The notes under the pieces: model-generated
Told to the model about the DNA's origin: nothing
Database searches by the model: none
Seen by the model: the letters and a program-made list of their open reading frames with translations, nothing else
Origin: Actinomycetota bacterium
GTDB lineage: Bacteria; Actinomycetota; Actinomycetes; Actinomycetales; Kineosporiaceae
Direction: 5' to 3'
Assembly: GCA_030837345.1 (NCBI GenBank)
Contig: JAUPKQ010000123.1
Location: 1-42,596 of the forward strand
Length of the DNA: 42,596 bases
Shown here: one piece after another, positions 4,642 through 13,828 of the stretch
Layout: every line of letters begins with the position of its first letter
How positions within the stretch are numbered: the first letter of the stretch is position 1
Translations under genes and position numbers: made by a program

Positions 4642-5243
4642 CCGGCCCCGCGTGGGTCCTGCTGGGGCTCGGACTGCTGGTGGTCGTCGTCCAGAGGCGC
4701 ACCCTCGCCCTCGGCGCCGTCTCCGCCCAGGTCCTCGTTCTCGTCGGCCTGGCCTTCGCCGACGCGGGAGACCTCCACGAGTTCGCCGCGACGGGGGCGC
4801 TCGCCGTCCGGGGGACGGTCCTCGCCGTCGTCTTCGGCCTCCTGATCAGCCGGACGAGAGACTCCCGGCCCGTCGCCCACCCGCTGAAGCCCCTGCTCCG
4901 GGGAGCCCTGGCCGTCGGTCTCGGGCTGGCCCTCACCTGGCTGGTGCCCCCGATCGGCCTCGCCGACCGGACCGCCGAGCCCGTCGTGCTCTGCCTCGTC
5001 GCCTTCGGGCTGCTCGTGGCGGCGACGAGCAGGGCGACGATCGTGCAGGTGCTCGGGGTCCTGCTCGTCGAGAACGGCATGTCGCTCGCCGCCCTCCAGT
5101 TGCCTGGCAGCTCCTGGATGATCGAGCTCGGTGTCGCCGTCGACGTCATCCTGATCGCGCTCGTCGCCGGGATCTTCCACGAGCGGATCTTCGTCGAGTT
5201 CGGCGCCGGGGACAGCGCCGCGTTGAGGAGTCTTCGTGACTGA
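4638..5243 (+). CDS. hyfE: Hydrogenase-4-type membrane subunit E (HyfE, NuoK-containing)
   Basis: 201 residues with about six transmembrane segments, matching HyfE (called HycP in mycobacteria), whose C-terminal half resembles NuoK. The QVLGVLLVENGMSLAALQL segment holds the conserved membrane Glu expected of the NuoK-like part. GTG 4638 overlaps the hyfC stop by four bases. It ends inside the start of hyfF with an eight-base overlap. The gene order B-C-E-F-G with hyfD missing resembles the mycobacterial Rv0083-Rv0087 cluster as I remember it, though there the NuoB-like gene comes first and here it comes last. Confidence 0.85.
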   Translation: MTGPAWVLLGLGLLVVVVQRRTLALGAVSAQVLVLVGLAFADAGDLHEFAATGALAVRGTVLAVVFGLLISRTRDSRPVAHPLKPLLRGALAVGLGLALTWLVPPIGLADRTAEPVVLCLVAFGLLVAATSRATIVQVLGVLLVENGMSLAALQLPGSSWMIELGVAVDVILIALVAGIFHERIFVEFGAGDSAALRSLRD

Positions 5244-6714
5244 CCGGATCCTGCTCGCGGAGGTCCTCGTCGCGGCTCCCCTCGCCGTCGCGGTGATCGT
5301 CGCCTGCCTGCCCCGCCGGTGGACGACGGCCCTCGCCGTCGGAGGAGCCGCCGTGACGGGGGCGCTCGCCGTCACCGTTTCGGGTCTCGCCCTCGCCGAC
5401 GCCGCCCATCCCCGTGTCGGGAGCTGGATCGCCCTGGACGCCGCGGGCGGGCTCCTGGTCGGAGTGATCGGTCTCGTCGGACTGGTCAGCGTGCTGATCT
5501 CCCCGGCCTACCTCGCGACGGCGACCTCCTCCCTCGTCGCCGACGGGCGGCGCGCCACGTTCTACTACGTCCTCGTCAACGTCTTCTGGGCCGCGCTGCT
5601 CGCCGTCCCGCTCGCCGGGAACCTCGGGACCGCCTGGCTCCTCGTCGAGGCGACCACCGCCGCGTCGGCCCTCCTCGTCGGTTTCAGCGGCAGCGCCCGC
5701 GCCCTCGAAGCGGGCTGGAAGTACCTGATCCTCACCTCGCTCGGCCTCGGGATCGCCCTTCTCGGCATCGTGCTCCTGGCCGCCGGCACCCCGGGAGGCG
5801 GCCTCGGCGCCCTGACGTGGCGGACCCTCCCCACCTACGCCGGGGACCCGTCGACGGCCCTCGTCGCCTACCTGCTCCTGCTCGTCGGGCTCGCCGCGAA
5901 GATCGGCTGGGCGCCGGTCCACAACTGGCTCCCCGACGCGCACTCCCAGGCCCCGGCCCCCGTCTCGGCCCTTCTCTCCGCGGCCCTCCTCCCCGCCGTC
6001 CTCCTCGTCGCCTGGCGGTGCGAGCAAGGGCTCGCCCCGGTGATCGGGCAGACGACGGCCCGGAACGTCCTGATCGGGTTCGGGCTCGCCTCGGTCGCCG
6101 TCGCCGTTCCGTTCCTCGCGCGGCAGCTGGCCTGGAAGCGCCTGCTCGCCTACTCCAGCCTCGAACACATGGGGGTGATCGCCCTCGGCATCGGGTTCGG
6201 GTCGCCGCTCGCCCTCGCCGGTGTCGCCGTCCACCTCACCGCGCACGCCGTCGCCAAGACGCTCGGCTTCGTCGTCGTCACGCCCCTGCTCGCCCACCGT
6301 CCCAGCGCCGCGAGGGAGGCCGTGACCGGCATCGGCGGCAGCAGACCCGTCCTCGCCGCCGGGATGGGTGTCTGCCTCGGGACTCTCTCCGGACTGCCTC
6401 CCTCCCCGATCTTCGTCAGTGAACTGCTGATCATCGCCGGCGGTTTCCAGGCCGGGCGCCCCTGGATCGCGGGGGCGACAGCTCTCCTGCTCGCCCTGGC
6501 CTTCCTCGGACTGAGTCGTTCCCTGCTGGAGACGACGGCGTGGAACACGTCCGCCGACGCGCCGGAGCACGAACGCACCGCGGCGCTGCCCGGTCTGCGG
6601 GCCGCCGGGGCCCTGGCGGCCGTCTCCACCGTCGTTCTCGTCGCCCTGGTCGGGGTGTCGGCCTGGCTCCCGGCGACCGATCTCGTCGACGCCTTCCTGA
6701 AGGGGGTCTCGTGA
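5236..6714 (+). CDS. hyfF: Hydrogenase-4-type membrane subunit F (HyfF, NuoL/N-like)
   Basis: 492-residue membrane protein of the NuoL/M/N family, the second antiporter-like subunit of the complex. Motifs seen include VEATTAASALLVGF, the Lys-containing KIGWAPVHNWLPDAHSQAPA with PVSALLSAALLPAV, and KRLLAYSSLEHMGVIALG. Its shorter length and lack of HyfB's C-terminal tail fit HyfF (HycQ in mycobacteria). The GTG start at 5236 overlaps hyfE by eight bases and the stop overlaps hyfG by four. With HyfB this gives two antiporter modules, fewer than hydrogenase-4 of E. coli (HyfB, D, F) and more than FHL-1 (HycC). Confidence 0.9.
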   Translation: MTDRILLAEVLVAAPLAVAVIVACLPRRWTTALAVGGAAVTGALAVTVSGLALADAAHPRVGSWIALDAAGGLLVGVIGLVGLVSVLISPAYLATATSSLVADGRRATFYYVLVNVFWAALLAVPLAGNLGTAWLLVEATTAASALLVGFSGSARALEAGWKYLILTSLGLGIALLGIVLLAAGTPGGGLGALTWRTLPTYAGDPSTALVAYLLLLVGLAAKIGWAPVHNWLPDAHSQAPAPVSALLSAALLPAVLLVAWRCEQGLAPVIGQTTARNVLIGFGLASVAVAVPFLARQLAWKRLLAYSSLEHMGVIALGIGFGSPLALAGVAVHLTAHAVAKTLGFVVVTPLLAHRPSAAREAVTGIGGSRPVLAAGMGVCLGTLSGLPPSPIFVSELLIIAGGFQAGRPWIAGATALLLALAFLGLSRSLLETTAWNTSADAPEHERTAALPGLRAAGALAAVSTVVLVALVGVSAWLPATDLVDAFLKGVS

Positions 6715-8246
6715 CTGCCAACGTCGTCGGAATGCTCCGTCCGCGAGGAGCGGGAGGGCGGGGACCGGACGGTCCCGGCGCCCCGCGCGGCGGCGGTGAG
6801 GACCCCCGCTCCTACCGGGACCGCGTCGAGGCCGCCCTCGCCGCCGGACGCCGCTTCGCGGGCCTTCACGTCGGAGCCGGGGGCGACGTCGTGCGCACCC
6901 TGCTCGTCGCGCCGGATGGGACCGCCGAGCTGATCGGGACCTCCGTCGACGACGGCGCCGTCCCCTCGATCGTCGATCTCGTCCCCGCCGCCACCTGGGA
7001 CGAGCGGGAGGCCTGGGACCGGTTCGGCATCGCGTTCGACGGACACCACCCGCTGCGGCCGTTGCTCGACCACTCAGGGAGCGTCTCGTGGACGGTGCCC
7101 GTGCTCGGCGCGGATGTCTACCAGGTCGCCGTCGGCCCGATCCACGCCGGGGTGATCGAATCGGGACACTTCCGGTTCCACCTCGTCGGGGACCGCATCC
7201 TCCAGGTGGACGCCCGCCTGTTCTACAAGCACCGGGGCCTTGAGCCCGCCGCCGAGAACGAACCGTTCGACGTCGGTCTCGCCCACGCGGGCCGGGCCTG
7301 CGCGGCCTGCACGGTGAGCAACTCCGTCGCCTACGCGACGGCCTGGGAACAGATCCTCGGGCTCGTGCCCACGCCGGGGCTCGCCCGGGCGCGCACGGTG
7401 CTCCTCGAACTCGAACGGGTGTGGAGCCACCTCAACGACATCGCCGCGATCTGCGCCGGGGTCGGTCTGGCGGCCGGGAACGCGCGGTTCGCCGACCTCA
7501 CCGACCGGGCCCGCCGGCTCAACGCCCTCCTTTCCGGGCACCGGTTCGCCTTCGGCTCCGTCCGGATCGGCCGCAGCGAGATCGAGGCCGACACGGAGAC
7601 GGTCGACGGGATCCGGGACGGGCTGATCCGGATCCAGGAGGAGTTCACGCGCAGCTGGCGTGAACTCGTGTTCAACCCGTCCTTCACCGACCGGATGCCC
7701 GGGGTCGGCGTCGTGGACGCGGCCCAGGCCGTGCTGCTCGGCACGACCGGACCGGCCGCGCGCGCCGCGGGGCTGGCCGAGGACGTCAGGGCCGCCTCAC
7801 CGGGCCTTTCCTACCCCGGCTTCGAGGCCGTCGTCCCGACGCGGGCGGACGGCGACGTCCGGGCCCGCTTCGAACAGCGGTCGCTCGAACTGGAGCAGAG
7901 CTTCGGCCTCCTGCTGGGCCTCCTGGACGGACCGCTGGAGTCCGCGCTCGCGGAACCCGGGGCACCCTCCCGGCAGATCGGGATCGGTCTGGTCGAGAGC
8001 CCCCGCGGGCGCACCTCCTGCGTCGTCGAACGCGCGGGCGCGCGGGCGGCTGGCAGCGACGGCTCGCGGGAACGTTCCCGTGACGGTTCCCGTGACGACG
8101 AGCACCGGATCGCCCGCTGGCGCCTTCGGACCGGCTCCTACGCCAACTGGCCCTCGGTGGCCTTCGCCGCGGCCGGGAACCTCCTGCCGGACTTCCCCCT
8201 GATCAACAAGAGCTTCGAGCTCTGCTACTCCTGCGTGGACCGCTGA
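6711..8246 (+). CDS. hyfG: Group-4-like [NiFe] hydrogenase large subunit (HyfG/HycE, NuoC-NuoD fusion)
   Basis: 511 residues. About 30-160 is a NuoC-like domain (TWDEREAWDRFGIAFDGHHPLRPLL), and about 165-511 is NuoD/hydrogenase-large-subunit-like. The two cysteine pairs that would hold the Ni-Fe centre are present: C197/C200 in RACAAC and C505/C508 in ELCYSC. The usual G inside the first pair is A, and the usual DP before the last pair is EL. The protein stops three residues after C508, so it has no C-terminal extension for a maturation peptidase to cut. It could therefore be a true hydrogenase assembled without proteolysis, or a relative with a changed metal site. GTG 6711 overlaps hyfF by four bases; the first 25 residues are Gly/Pro-rich and may be dispensable. 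Confidence 0.88.
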   Translation: MTANVVGMLRPRGAGGRGPDGPGAPRGGGEDPRSYRDRVEAALAAGRRFAGLHVGAGGDVVRTLLVAPDGTAELIGTSVDDGAVPSIVDLVPAATWDEREAWDRFGIAFDGHHPLRPLLDHSGSVSWTVPVLGADVYQVAVGPIHAGVIESGHFRFHLVGDRILQVDARLFYKHRGLEPAAENEPFDVGLAHAGRACAACTVSNSVAYATAWEQILGLVPTPGLARARTVLLELERVWSHLNDIAAICAGVGLAAGNARFADLTDRARRLNALLSGHRFAFGSVRIGRSEIEADTETVDGIRDGLIRIQEEFTRSWRELVFNPSFTDRMPGVGVVDAAQAVLLGTTGPAARAAGLAEDVRAASPGLSYPGFEAVVPTRADGDVRARFEQRSLELEQSFGLLLGLLDGPLESALAEPGAPSRQIGIGLVESPRGRTSCVVERAGARAAGSDGSRERSRDGSRDDEHRIARWRLRTGSYANWPSVAFAAAGNLLPDFPLINKSFELCYSCVDR

Positions 8247-8698
8247 TGTTCACCTTGCTGCGTGACCTGCGCCGGATCCGCCGAGGACTGGATCTTCCCG
8301 GCCCCGCCCGGGGCGGGAGCCTCGCCGTCCGCCACGTCGACGCCGGATCCTGCAACGGGTGCGAACACGAGCTGACCTTGACGTCGGCACCGGCCTACGA
8401 CCTTCAACGGTTCGGTATCGGAGTGGTGGCGTCGCCCCGGCACGCCGATGTCCTGTTCGTCACCGGAGCGGTGACGAACAGGATGCGGGAACCGCTGCTC
8501 ACCGCCTACGCCGCGATGCCCGAACCCCGCCGGGTCGCGGCGGTCGGGGACTGCGCCCTCGGGTGCGGAGTGCTGGGGTCCGCGTCGGAGCTCGCCGGGC
8601 CCGTCGAGGATCTCCTGCCGGTCGACCTGCGCCTTCCCGGCTGCCCGCCGGACCCGGCGGCGATCGCCGCCGCCCTGCTGACGCTGATCGGGCAGTAG
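8246..8698 (+). CDS. hyfI: Hydrogenase small subunit (HyfI/HycG, NuoB-like [4Fe-4S] protein)
   Basis: 150 residues, of the NuoB/HycG family. Likely cluster ligands are C36 and C39 (SCNGCE), C103 (GDCALGC, with C107 close by) and C133 (GCPPDP), as expected for the proximal [4Fe-4S] cluster next to the Ni-Fe site. The ATG at 8246 shares a base with the hyfG stop (TGATG). It is the last gene of the operon. There is no gene for a HyfH/HycF or HyfA/HycB 8Fe ferredoxin, so how electrons reach this cluster cannot be told from the window. Confidence 0.92.
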   Translation: MFTLLRDLRRIRRGLDLPGPARGGSLAVRHVDAGSCNGCEHELTLTSAPAYDLQRFGIGVVASPRHADVLFVTGAVTNRMREPLLTAYAAMPEPRRVAAVGDCALGCGVLGSASELAGPVEDLLPVDLRLPGCPPDPAAIAAALLTLIGQ

Positions 8699-8762: not shown

Positions 8763-10388
8763 GTGTCGACCGGTGGCGACGTCAGTGATCAGCTGAGCCG
8801 GCTCAAGACTCGTAGCGGGCGTAGCTACGAGTGGATCGCCCGGCGGACGCACACGAGCAAGTCGAGCGTGCAGCGGTACTGCGCGGGGACCGCGACGCCA
8901 CCGGTCTTCGGCGTGGTGGAGCGGATCGCGCTGGCCTGCGGGGCGAGCGCGGAGGAGGTGGGCTGCCTCTTTCGCGCGTGGGACCGCGAGCGGACCGCGG
9001 ATTCCGTCCCCCCACCGGCACCGGTCCCGCTGGAAGAGGCGAGGAGCGAGGCCGCCGCTGTCCCTCGCCGTCGTGCGTGGGCGAACACGGCATTCGTGAC
9101 CGCGGTGCTCGTCGTCGTCGCCGTCCTGGTGGTGAGGAACGGCCCGGCGGGTGGAAAGCCCTCCGGCGAATCGACGGGGGGATCGAGGCCGGCGGTCACC
9201 GTCGAGCCCTCCTGGAAACGCGGCGCGATGGTGGTCCCCGCCTCCTTCTTCGGGGTGACCATCAACAGCAGCACCGGCGCGATGCCGGGCATCCGCGTCG
9301 GCGCTGTCCGGTTGTGGGACAGCCAGACGCGCTGGGCCCAGCTGGAGCCCTCTCGTGGCACCTACGACTGGACCGTCCTGGACCGGCTGGTCGACGGGGC
9401 GGGGAAGGCGGGTCTTCCGGTTCTCTTCACGTTCGGGGGGACGCCTCGGTGGGCGAATCCCGAGGCTCCCGCCGCCGCGTACCCCGACGGCAGCCGGGCA
9501 GCCCCGCCCACGGATCTGACGGACTGGGAGGAGATCGTACGGTCGGTCAGCAGGCGGTACGCCGGACGCATCGAGGCCTATGAAGTATGGCCTTTGGGCA
9601 ACGATCCGCGGTTCTTCAACGGCGGTGTCGGGACTCTCGTCGACATGACGCGCCGGGCGAGCCGGATCCTTCGCGCCGCCGACCCCGGGGTCACCGTCGT
9701 CTGTCCTGGTATGGGCAATCTCTGGACGACGGAAGGACAGGCCGTGCTGCGTCGTTTCGCGGAGGCGGGCGGGTACGACCACTGCGACGTCGCGAGCGTG
9801 AAGCTGTACCAGCGCCGTCCGGGTGACGCGCCTGAGACCATGCTCGACCTCGTGGCGACGATCGACCAGTTGATGCACGCGTCGGGTGTGCAGCCCCGGC
9901 TGTGGGTGACCGGTACGACGTTCGGGATCAGTGAGCAGGCCCCGCTGCCGGCGGAGCTGCTGCGGGCCCATGCGACGAGGTACTACCTCACCGGCCTCTA
10001 CGGCAAGGCCCTCAACATCGAACGGATGTACTACTACAACTGGGGTGGATCGCGAATACCGCTGGTCCTTCAGGCGGAGGGCCTCCCACCGACCCCGGCC
10101 GGACAGGCGGTGGACCGGCTGCAAGAGTGGCTGGACGGCGCGAGTGTCACCTCCTGCCAGCGGGGAGCGACCGCGAGGCGGGGCAGCACCTGGCAGTGCC
10201 GTGTGGAGTTCTCGAAGCCGCGGCAGCGGGCGGCCACCGTTCGCTGGACGGACACCGGGACGGTCGACGTCGAGGCCGGTCCCCGGGACGTGGCGGTGCG
10301 TGACCTCGACGATCGGGTGACGCCCGTACGTCCCGGGGACCGGATCACCGTGTCCCCCGAGCCGGTGCTGGTGGAGCAGAACGGTTGA
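8763..10388 (+). CDS. Membrane-spanning HTH regulator with extracellular glycosidase-like domain
   Basis: 541 residues. About 8-72 is a helix-turn-helix of the Xre-like type common in actinobacteria (SYEWIARRTHTSKSSVQRYC). A proline-rich spacer follows, then one transmembrane helix at about 107-124 after RRR, so the rest should face outside. About 145-460 looks like a TIM-barrel glycoside hydrolase of clan A (near GH39): RLWDSQTRWAQLEP, GTYDWTVLD, FTFGGTPRWA. At the usual acid/base site (WNEPN-like) it has W276-P-L-G-N, and at the usual nucleophile (WVTE-like) it has W381-V-T-G. Both glutamates therefore appear lost. A small C-terminal beta domain with two Cys follows. I prefer GTG 8763 (GGGAGAGGGGG just upstream) to GTG 8745. 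I infer a carbohydrate sensor that signals through the membrane. Confidence 0.75.
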   Translation: MSTGGDVSDQLSRLKTRSGRSYEWIARRTHTSKSSVQRYCAGTATPPVFGVVERIALACGASAEEVGCLFRAWDRERTADSVPPPAPVPLEEARSEAAAVPRRRAWANTAFVTAVLVVVAVLVVRNGPAGGKPSGESTGGSRPAVTVEPSWKRGAMVVPASFFGVTINSSTGAMPGIRVGAVRLWDSQTRWAQLEPSRGTYDWTVLDRLVDGAGKAGLPVLFTFGGTPRWANPEAPAAAYPDGSRAAPPTDLTDWEEIVRSVSRRYAGRIEAYEVWPLGNDPRFFNGGVGTLVDMTRRASRILRAADPGVTVVCPGMGNLWTTEGQAVLRRFAEAGGYDHCDVASVKLYQRRPGDAPETMLDLVATIDQLMHASGVQPRLWVTGTTFGISEQAPLPAELLRAHATRYYLTGLYGKALNIERMYYYNWGGSRIPLVLQAEGLPPTPAGQAVDRLQEWLDGASVTSCQRGATARRGSTWQCRVEFSKPRQRAATVRWTDTGTVDVEAGPRDVAVRDLDDRVTPVRPGDRITVSPEPVLVEQNG

Positions 10389-10522: not shown

Positions 10523-10604
10523 TGCCATAAGCAAACTGATGTCGCGAGTGGTCGCCGCTGACCGGGGAACGCGGCGTGCCCGTCATCACTCTCCTGGAGG
10601 CACA

Positions 10605-11720
10605 GTGAGGTTCACCCCGACCGTCCGGGCCCTGGCCGGTCTGTTGTTCGTCGCCGGGCTCGTCGGCTGTTCCAGCGGTGAAGGGGTGGGGATCATCCCG
10701 GCGACCGGGAGTGCCGACAACGGTCCGCTGATCGGGGTGTCCATGCCGACGGTGACGTCGGAGCGCTGGGTCAACGACGGCGAGAACATCAAGGCCTCGC
10801 TGGCGAAACTCGGTTACCGTGTCGATCTCCAGTACGCGCAGAACGACGTGCAGGCCCAGGTCCACCAACTGGAGTACCAGATCACCAAGGACGTCAAGCT
10901 CCTCATCATCGCGTCGATCGACGGTGGGGGGATCCAGCAGCAGATGCAGGAGGCCGAGGCGAAGAAGATCCCGGTCATCGCCTATGACCGGCTCATCCGC
11001 AACAGTACCGCGGTCGACTACTACGCGAGTTTCGACAACTACAAGGTCGGTGTCGCGCAGGCGACGTCCCTGCTGACCGGCCTGGGCCTCACGAAGAACG
11101 GGGCCACCGGAGGCCCGCTCAACATCGAAATCTTCGCCGGATCGCCCGACGACAACAACGCGACCTTCTTCTTCAAGGGCGCGATGGACACGCTGAAGCC
11201 GTATCTGGACGACGGACGCCTGGTCGTCAGGAGCGGTCAGACCGATTTCAAGTCCGTCTCGACCCTCCGCTGGGACCCCGTGCCGGCCCAGAAGCGCATG
11301 GAAGACCTGCTGACCAAGACGTATCGTGGCGGTGTCAAGGTCCAGGGCGTGCTCTCGCCGTACGACGGGATGTCCATCGGCATTCTCTCCGCCCTGAAGA
11401 GCAACGGGTACGGCACCGCCGATCAGCCGTATCCCGTGGTGACCGGACAGGACGCGGAACTCGCGTCCGTGAAGTCGATCATCGCGAGCGAGCAGTACTC
11501 CACGATCTTCAAGGACACCCGTCAACTGGCGGAGGTCACCGTGAAGATGGCCGACGAGATCCTCAAGGGCAGGACGCCGCCGACGAACAACACCACGGAC
11601 TACGACAACGGCAAGAAGGTCGTGTCCTCCTATCTGCTCCAGCCGGTGATCGTCACCAAAGCCAACTACAAGAAGGTGCTCTTCGACAGCGGCTACTACT
11701 CCCTGGACGACCTGAAGTGA
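10605..11720 (+). CDS. ChvE-like multiple-sugar-binding lipoprotein (orphan ABC binding protein)
   Basis: 371 residues. A lipoprotein signal peptide with lipobox LVGC places it on the outer face of the membrane. The mature part is a periplasmic-binding-protein type I fold of the ChvE/sugar-binding group: [68 protein letters not shown]. ChvE binds aldoses and feeds the GguAB/MmsAB importer; in Agrobacterium it also acts as co-receptor of the VirA kinase. No permease or ATPase lies nearby. The start is GTG 10605, with GGAGG five bases upstream. An upstream in-frame start (10539) would bury the signal peptide and is rejected. The neighbour upstream is the membrane HTH/glycosidase-like protein. 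A strong hairpin follows the stop. Confidence 0.85.
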
Positions 11721-12619: not shown

Positions 12620-13828
12620 TCAGGCCTCGACGGTCGCCGCGCTGTCCGCCGGAGCGAGAGGTGGCGGGGCAGCCGCCGTCGCCGCCGGGACCGCCGCCGT
12701 CGCCGCCGGGGCGGGACCTCGGAGCCGGCGGCGCAGGGCGCGGACGAGTTGGAGCCCGACCGTGGCGCGCCGGATCGCCGGGACCGCGGTCGCCGGGCTC
12801 TCCAGGAGCAGCAGGAGGTCGGCGGCGAGCTGCTCCAGGCTCGTTCCCGCCACCGCTCCGGGGGAGGTGACCTGCTCGGAGGCAGGGCGGAGATCCTCCA
12901 GGGACCCCACGACGGACACCCCGAGGGATCGAAGCTCCTGTACGTCCTCGTTGGCCCACCGCTCGATCAGGGAACGGAACCGTTCCGGCAGGAGGATCGG
13001 GGATCCTGTCCGGCTCTCGGCGCGCATCCAGCTGTCGAGGATCTTGCGACGGACGAGTCGTTGCTTCTCGGCGGAGCGCCGGCCGTCGTCGAGGCACTGG
13101 TTGAGGTGACGGAGAAGGTCGGTCTGGCTCAGGGTGAGGGAGAGATTGCGCTCGCTGCGATCCTTCACGGCGTTCTCGGCGAGGGGCTCCGGGACGCCGG
13201 CGGCGGTGGCGAAGCGAGGCCACAGCTCTCCCCGGCCCCGGTGGGGAACGGTGACGAGGGTGATGCGGCGCGGATCGACGACGTCGGACCACCGGCTGAC
13301 GAGGCCCGGGAGGCCGAAGGCGGTCCACAGGGGGACGCCGGGGATGCCGCGCAGAGCGGACAGGGAACTCAGGTACTCCTCCAGCGGCTGCGACGACCCG
13401 TTCTTCACGTTCTGCTGCCAGATGCTCGGGAGCAGCCGGCCGAAGTCCCGTGCGGTGATGATGACGTCCACCTCGGCGGGATCGGCACGGAGGTCGGCGA
13501 GCAGAGTCTCGATCTCGGTACGGTCGAAGAAGGACAGCGACTCGGCGGAGATGAGCGTCCTCCCCGAGTGGGCCGAGATCTCCTCGCACAGCCGGTCGAA
13601 GTACCGGACGGCGTTCTCCCGTGCCTCCTGGCCGACCCATCCGATGTTGCGCCGCCCCAGCGCGTAGATCGCGGGCTGCTGGTTCAGGCCACCGTGCGGA
13701 AGGTAGTCCTTCCCGGGGAAACAGATGCCTCTTCGCCGGAGATCCTTGCGTCCGGAGCGCAGGATCGTCTGGAGGTAGGTCGTTCCGGACTTAGGGGTTC
13801 CGATGTGAAGAGTGAGCTGGGGGGCCAT
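12620..13828 (-). CDS. Sulfotransferase-family protein
   Basis: 402 residues. The N-terminus has the 5'-phosphosulfate-binding loop of PAPS sulfotransferases, GTPKSGTTYLQ at about residues 10-20. The segment ITARDFGRLLPSIWQQ fits the 3'-phosphate-binding R...S motif. The enzyme should transfer sulfate from PAPS to a hydroxyl or amine of an unknown substrate (glycan, lipid or small molecule). The last 35 residues are Ala/Pro-rich and probably disordered. It is cytoplasmic with no signal peptide. No PAPS-synthesis genes lie nearby and the gene seems to stand alone. The next genes on this strand (metal uptake) start over 400 bases away. Confidence 0.8.
   Translation of the reverse strand: MAPQLTLHIGTPKSGTTYLQTILRSGRKDLRRRGICFPGKDYLPHGGLNQQPAIYALGRRNIGWVGQEARENAVRYFDRLCEEISAHSGRTLISAESLSFFDRTEIETLLADLRADPAEVDVIITARDFGRLLPSIWQQNVKNGSSQPLEEYLSSLSALRGIPGVPLWTAFGLPGLVSRWSDVVDPRRITLVTVPHRGRGELWPRFATAAGVPEPLAENAVKDRSERNLSLTLSQTDLLRHLNQCLDDGRRSAEKQRLVRRKILDSWMRAESRTGSPILLPERFRSLIERWANEDVQELRSLGVSVVGSLEDLRPASEQVTSPGAVAGTSLEQLAADLLLLLESPATAVPAIRRATVGLQLVRALRRRLRGPAPAATAAVPAATAAAPPPLAPADSAATVEA

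Follow-up and report, generated by a model that had tools for sequence, protein, structure and literature searches.

A predicted membrane-anchored Xre-type regulator of actinomycetes whose outside domain is a PslG-like barrel without its two catalytic glutamates

CadC has the same one-chain membrane layout as ToxR, and both carry a winged helix-turn-helix (HTH) of the OmpR type together with outside folds other than the one considered here. In ToxR, a DNA-binding part, one membrane helix and an outside sensor are described as lying in one protein (PMC7265457, in the sections available). RsgI6 and other RsgI proteins of Clostridium thermocellum, in the accessible part of the source, likewise have a cytoplasmic regulatory part, one membrane helix and an outside carbohydrate-related sensor, including a glycosidase domain; RsgI6 holds a sigma factor, and its GH10 domain targets xylan and cellulose (PMC12203970). 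The ECF52 and ECF53 proteins of actinobacteria (SCO4117) are transcription proteins that span the membrane and bear, on its outer side, domains that bind carbohydrates or are predicted glycosidases, their output being a fused sigma factor, and the available passages of the two papers make no mention of a dead GH39-type barrel (PMC8999054, PMC10766802). For the enzyme side of the comparison there is PslG of Pseudomonas aeruginosa, a hydrolase in which, according to excerpts of the two sources, Glu165 is the acid/base and Glu276 the nucleophile (PMC11912335, PMC9075953). Since ToxR, CadC, RsgI6 and ECF52 are described, the one-protein membrane route as such is not new; the preliminary description of the locus reported below had named no described class for it. 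An Xre HTH with a dead GH39-type sensor, on the other hand, is not known to us from any description. Text searches of open-licence PMC papers gave none for such a protein among the matches listed, and one annotated record of it is named only "helix-turn-helix domain-containing protein".

The protein comes from a stretch of 42,596 nucleotides, the window in what follows, of a Kineosporiaceae contig (JAUPKQ010000123.1). An ORF of 541 amino acids lies on its + strand, with a GTG start at 8763, preceded by the stretch AGAGGGGG, and a stop that ends at 10388. Barrels without both catalytic glutamates are called dead below, and those with both are called live. The features are:

8763..10388, + strand: complete gene, stop included, for an Xre HTH, a linker, a membrane helix, a dead PslG/GH39-like barrel and a C-terminal beta domain (ORF, Pfam, model)
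8787..8960, + strand: HTH_31 domain, residues 9-66 (Pfam 45 bits, cut-off 27; model helices between residues 6 and 79)
9078..9137, + strand: predicted membrane helix, residues 106-125 (best hydropathy window and lone model helix)
9219..10139, + strand: PslG/GH39-like barrel, about residues 153-459 (structure models, fold comparison)
10140..10385, + strand: C-terminal beta domain, about residues 460-541, with Cys465 and Cys479 (model, alignment)
9588..9599, + strand: WPLG, residues 276-279, site of the lost acid/base Glu (alignments to PslG and relatives)
9903..9914, + strand: WVTG, residues 381-384, site of the lost nucleophile Glu (alignments to PslG and relatives)
9702..9704, + strand: Cys314, paired with Cys341 in dead barrels only (alignment)
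9783..9785, + strand: Cys341, possible partner of Cys314 (alignment)
9801..9803, + strand: Lys347 in strand 6, mostly His in live enzymes (alignment)

The Xre-like HTH and the single transmembrane helix that had been read from the sequence at the outset are thus both found, the helix as a prediction. The window protein is predicted to combine, as ToxR and CadC do, a DNA-binding part, one membrane helix and an outside domain in one chain; its HTH belongs to HTH_31 and not to the OmpR-type winged HTHs, and the SARP-type relatives described below do have Trans_reg_C. In contrast to RsgI6, the cytoplasmic part is an HTH, or a SARP in relatives, and the outside domain a dead GH39-type barrel, and the sigma-I-binding N-terminal domain of RsgI is not among the 7 Pfam matches listed for the protein (E up to 1). 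From ECF52 and ECF53 it differs in having an Xre HTH as its output. Profile searches recognize the barrel only faintly: Glyco_hydro_42 gives a weak, partial match of 29.1 bits over residues 189-243 (cut-off 21), Glyco_hydro_39 reaches 14 bits, below its cut-off of 26, and an NCBIfam scan gave nothing above any cut-off. Two live relatives that were scanned score 26.5 (L027) and 22.4 (the L125 enzyme) with Glyco_hydro_39.

The fold assignment comes from structure prediction. AlphaFold models made with 10 sequences have a pLDDT of 73.5 and a pTM of 0.65 for the whole protein, and of 78.9 and 0.81 for the outside part alone; both the barrel, which has eight strands, and the beta domain at the C-terminus are modelled, and ahead of them stand a five-helix N-terminal domain and the lone helix 106-125. 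PslG, which has the same barrel and beta domain, is the closest solved fold both to the whole model (VIA-align Z 31.7, rmsd 2.9, 360 aligned) and to the outside part alone (VIA-align Z 29.4, rmsd 3.0-3.1, also over 360 residues); across the PDB entries 4zn2, 5bx9 and 9g17 the comparison gives Z 29.1-31.7 over 360-371 residues at 18-19% identity. GH39, GH30 and GH51 enzymes rank behind it, the best Foldseek E value (1.6e-19) is to PslG, and the family profile matches PslG at E 6e-15. Counted along the profile alignment, in which the PslG chain is numbered 26 below the paper, Glu165 of PslG falls on Leu278 and Glu276 on Gly384; PslG thus differs from the window protein in keeping both glutamates, reported as catalytic in the parts of the sources seen (PMC9075953, PMC11912335), and in having neither HTH nor membrane helix. 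In the model of the outside part, residue 278 stands just after strand 4 and residue 384 inside strand 7. The assignment of residue 278 rests mainly on the alignment, because the loop there is poorly modelled (pLDDT below 50 at residues 277-285 of the first model and 279-283 of the second). The end of strand 4 and strand 7 are what we take to be the catalytic places of clan GH-A. The motifs named at the start, WPLGN at 276-280 and WVTG at 381-384, read as stated, and superposition of the predicted models bears out the glycosidase fold, and the profile alignment the loss of the two catalytic glutamates, with Leu278 and Gly384 in their places; at the level of these models, an outside barrel of glycosidase fold without both catalytic Glu is confirmed.

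A single scan of GTDB contigs (9 loci), plasmid records and whole-genome searches supplied the relatives; the whole-genome searches scored 4 to 26 candidates per genome, so that the counts from them are lower bounds. Of 130 unique barrel hits, the 96 with a score over 150 and a span over 300 residues were kept. Those left out comprise thirty-one weaker hits and three partial ones: L035, with live motifs; L079, with WNTD (Asp, not Gly, at 384), the part around 278 missing and a run of N upstream; and L180, a SARP-type copy whose barrel is cut short and reads WDFA. The 96 full-length barrels divide into 51 dead and 45 live. Every one of the 45 live barrels has Glu at position 278; the dead ones never do, with Leu (22), Phe (14), Met (5) or others (10) there instead, and position 384 is Glu in 45/45 live and Gly in 51/51 dead. 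Because 384 is Gly in every dead relative and 278 is Glu in none, the loss is not a matter of chance. The live motifs are mostly WNEA or WNEP at the acid/base site and WDTE or WNTE at the nucleophile site; in two live barrels the Glu is kept in a changed motif (WPEP/WTNE in L102, GNEI in L103).

The division extends to what the barrels are attached to. Modules were sought with profiles or single sequences of three kinds (Xre, SARP, kinase), and other kinds could escape; within that range an in-frame cytosolic output module was found on 48 of the 51 dead barrels (43 Xre, 4 SARP, 1 Ser/Thr kinase) vs none of the 45 live ones. Fisher's exact test of module against dead or live gives 6e-24, and since the rows are related to each other the tree weighs more than this figure. 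L123 was scored as having no module, though its SARP sits in another frame; L077 and L119 have dead barrels, no in-frame module and no HTH found nearby, and are either truncated genes or a module-less form. The layout of HTH, membrane helix and barrel and the losses of Glu are conserved across genera and families, and homologues of the same layout that keep both Glu, which would have spoken against the reading of the preliminary description, did not turn up among the 45 live barrels.

In a tree built without the catalytic columns, the 51 dead barrels form one clade (SH-aLRT 99), and the dead/live label needs one change, on 96 rows as on 85. The tree is a quick one, with no bootstrap and with long branches among the live rows, and its root, hence the direction from live to dead, depends on the fact that PslG and GH39 are enzymes. 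The SARP rows are one clade (100), which attaches to several Xre rows (94); the row with the kinase likewise has Xre rows as its neighbours (support 94 for three rows together). Pfam identifies BTAD (4.7e-44) and Trans_reg_C (2.5e-8) in L124, the same two families in L184, and Pkinase (3.3e-38) in L186. On these placements, the same outside domain most likely sat on an Xre HTH before it was transferred to SARP and kinase modules. At L186 (4401-9276) the gene for kinase, membrane helix and dead barrel lies near an AfsR-like gene with SARP, BTAD and NB-ARC parts, an arrangement that recalls AfsK/AfsR and is possibly a split version of the SARP-type protein. AfsK phosphorylates AfsR; a dead barrel, to our knowledge, is not part of AfsK. 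A gene in the same locus (6048-6860) that looked FHA-like by eye gave nothing in Pfam up to E 0.01.

The dead barrel is under purifying selection. In all 10 of the chosen close pairs of dead genes, the barrel has a dN/dS of 0.12-0.31 and the DNA-binding part one of 0.03-0.31, whereas the linker with the membrane helix reaches 0.42-1.10; for live genes, a single pair was compared, with a value of 0.31. On these values and the residue changes that follow, we conclude that selection maintains the dead domain with a remodelled pocket and that it is not in decay. At least 85% of live barrels share 36 positions; 28 of these are retained by 90% or more of the dead ones, four fall between, and the remaining four (Asn277, Glu278, Glu384 and Gly415) have gone from 90% or more. 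The aromatic and polar residues W185, D186, T227, P228, W276, T383, Y425 and W427, which we take to line the pocket, are kept in 50 or 51 of the 51. Other residues mark the dead clade: the Cys314 and Cys341 pair occurs in 51/51 dead and 0/45 live barrels, position 347 is Lys in 50/51 dead and His in 36/45 live, and Thr166 is present in 51/51 dead. Cys465 and Cys479 of the beta domain are each found in 51/51 dead and in 39 and 40 of the 45 live barrels. That the added Lys347 might meet an acidic ligand is speculation.

A promoter element upstream of part of the family gives a further line of evidence. A motif search over 27 non-redundant upstream regions reached a log-likelihood of 69.6 vs 37.7-43.3 in six simulated sets, a comparison that favours the real set because it was given 40 restarts and 60 iterations, the simulated sets 20 and 30; the test on random windows is the better control. 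The composite has three blocks, GGGACGCTGGGAYG, 11-12 nt, CTGACCWGC, 15-16 nt and YGGGAC, and stands upstream of the genes at L002-L010 and others. Its consensus was taken from these nine genes and scored in 29 letters on 34 other Xre-type genes, some of them close relatives of each other: 17 of the 34 match at least 21 of 29 letters vs 2.5% of 3993 random windows drawn from the collected loci, the other 17 score under 21, and 16 of the 17 high-scoring sites begin 72-137 nt before the HTH. A pattern made of the first two blocks gave six matches in 14 genomes, once each in 6 of them and always just upstream of the gene itself; it gave none in the genomes of training loci L003, L006 and L008 (3 of the 9), nor in the other 5, the window's included. 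The window gene itself is without the element (its score of 19 is reached by 41% of random windows), and a footprint of its own promoter gave nothing better than chance. In relatives the shared element suggests, at the sequence level, autoregulation; the site could also belong to another protein rather than to the Xre-type regulator. In the window, 64 bp separate the gene from the Oxidored_q6 gene before it, and short palindromes lie there.

The nearest live relatives of the dead clade, its sister group, are L123, L125 and L171, whose enzymes are predicted to be secreted, and in G933, G898 and G986 (3 of 5 loci) these live genes lie directly downstream of SARP-type dead genes on the same strand. 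At G894 the live gene is gone, and a remnant resembles, by eye, its signal peptide; at G1006 there is no live barrel in the 8 kb covered around the SARP-type gene. Each of the five full-length SARP loci continues with a small lipoprotein gene (recognized by BLAST cluster in three, by eye in two), giving at L149, L150 and L184, also L152 and L185, a series of SARP-type dead gene, live paralog (3/5) and lipoprotein gene on one strand. Another SARP copy, the sixth (G990), is truncated, and in G933 SARP and barrel are in different frames. When genes were called crudely in 43 loci and clustered, the regulator gene was recovered in 41 and other clusters span at most 5 loci; several neighbour clusters of four loci come from one set of four Dactylosporangium species. 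A live paralog was not found in the genome of the window, either among the candidates scored in one search (20 of 20) or among 4 of 64 in a second.

The explanation we favour, with a probability of roughly 0.6 for the whole of it, is a membrane-anchored one-component regulator with a pseudo-glycosidase as its outside sensor. A single membrane helix would link a cytoplasmic Xre HTH with an outside domain probably descended from a secreted endoglycosidase of the PslG/GH39 type, with its catalytic residues lost; the emptied, conserved pocket would most likely bind an oligo- or polysaccharide of the cell surface or the environment; ligand binding would alter HTH dimerisation or release, presumably in that direction; and the HTH, as a putative DNA-binding domain, would control its own gene in relatives and other targets. 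A receptor is the simplest account, because one outside domain is shared by three outputs, Xre HTH, SARP and kinase, and a glycan ligand is favoured, we infer, because the sugar-binding pocket is kept. The preliminary proposal that the barrel was reused as a sensor thereby gains ground in one respect, the same dead barrel being joined to SARP and kinase as sensor domains are; the sugar polymer it named as ligand stays at the level of a proposal.

Other accounts start from the same data. The dead barrel may sense a protein, for example a host enzyme or a self enzyme like the live paralog, as RsiV, in the excerpt available, is described as the receptor for lysozyme (PMC4183432). Catalytic loss would free the surface for such uses, and the live paralog gene adjoins three of the five SARP-type copies; since the old pocket is kept throughout the dead clade, we regard protein sensing as unlikely. 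Signalling by intramembrane cutting and release of the HTH, as in RsgI, instead of by dimerisation is a variant of the glycan-receptor reading and not exclusive of it: RsgI proteins with GH10 and other outside domains signal by stepwise proteolysis in the part of the source seen (PMC12203970), and we rate this route here as possible, if on the doubtful side.

If the HTH did not bind DNA, the protein could instead be a structural or scaffolding membrane protein. RodZ provides the precedent, with a resembling layout of HTH, membrane helix and outside part and an HTH that binds MreB. This account, however, has to contend with a SARP (Trans_reg_C and BTAD) or a kinase replacing the HTH on the same dead barrel, with the promoter element at the gene itself in relatives, and with the Pfam results for the window protein, in which neither a RodZ-type domain nor, specifically, the RodZ C-terminal domain is among the 7 matches listed (E up to 1), the outside part modelling as a barrel; we think it improbable. 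Finally, the barrel might still be an enzyme that uses other acids. E274, D186, D207 and E358 are present in 51/51 dead barrels, and E274 in only 15/45 live ones. However, D186 and D207 are conserved in live barrels beside the normal pair (38 and 45 of 45), E358 is present in 25/45, E274 lies within strand 4 and is mostly Gln in live barrels, and no dead barrel has an acid at 278 or 384. From the alignment of 51 dead and 45 live barrels, none of these acids is a convincing catalytic alternative, and a surviving enzyme seems to us very improbable.

Beyond the pseudo-glycosidase regulator itself, a broader proposal can be put forward tentatively, and we hold it at somewhat less than even odds: that a PslG-like endoglycosidase, once in actinobacteria, lost exactly its catalytic residues, gained a Cys pair, kept ever since, and a pocket Lys, became an outside sugar receptor, was joined to at least three unrelated outputs (Xre, SARP, Ser/Thr kinase), and in part of the family controls the live sister enzyme by which its ligand is made or removed. 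If this portable-receptor proposal is true, it would be a case of an enzyme turned receptor in which the change can be placed on a tree and the live sister enzyme still adjoins in some genomes, with the three output modules arguing for a sensor role; enzyme-to-receptor evolution would become testable, and actinomycetes, makers of many antibiotics, would have a way to couple outside glycans to gene control through a single chain. A link to the matrix hydrolases of Actinoplanes sporangia was considered and dropped: those are TcrA-regulated, and the term GH39 is absent from the text (PMC12691653).

The distribution of the protein type is patchy. Within the family of the window, barrel matches occur in at least 2 of 12 further genomes (G001, G010); a second family, f105, has them in at least 36 of 341 genomes (E up to 1e-50, not every match having been read), three of the 36 also with a live match, and the family to which Dactylosporangium fulvum belongs in at least 9 of 354. 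The carriers include Nucisporomicrobium, Nonomuraea, Paractinoplanes, Dactylosporangium, Embleya and a plasmid of Amycolatopsis. Among 13 records from the plasmid search, two are dead members and the remainder live or partial matches. The Amycolatopsis copy is Xre-type (L071, 7977-9596) and sits on an 89-kb plasmid between partition genes and a mobF relaxase; from this residence, the Xre-type gene can probably travel.

Three neighbouring regions of the window were also read. On the - strand at 12620-13828, an ORF with no Pfam family up to E 0.001 starts with a KSGTTYL stretch, which presumably resembles a sulfotransferase P-loop. Just upstream of the gene, at 5236-8695, Pfam identifies Proton_antipo_M, Complex1_49kDa and 30kDa, and Oxidored_q6, a set that in sequence resembles an energy-converting group 4 [NiFe] hydrogenase or a complex-I-like assembly; its large subunit keeps, by eye, two CxxC motifs. 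Downstream, at 10539-11717, lies a gene for a periplasmic binding lipoprotein of the sugar type (Peripla_BP_4, E 9.4e-59).
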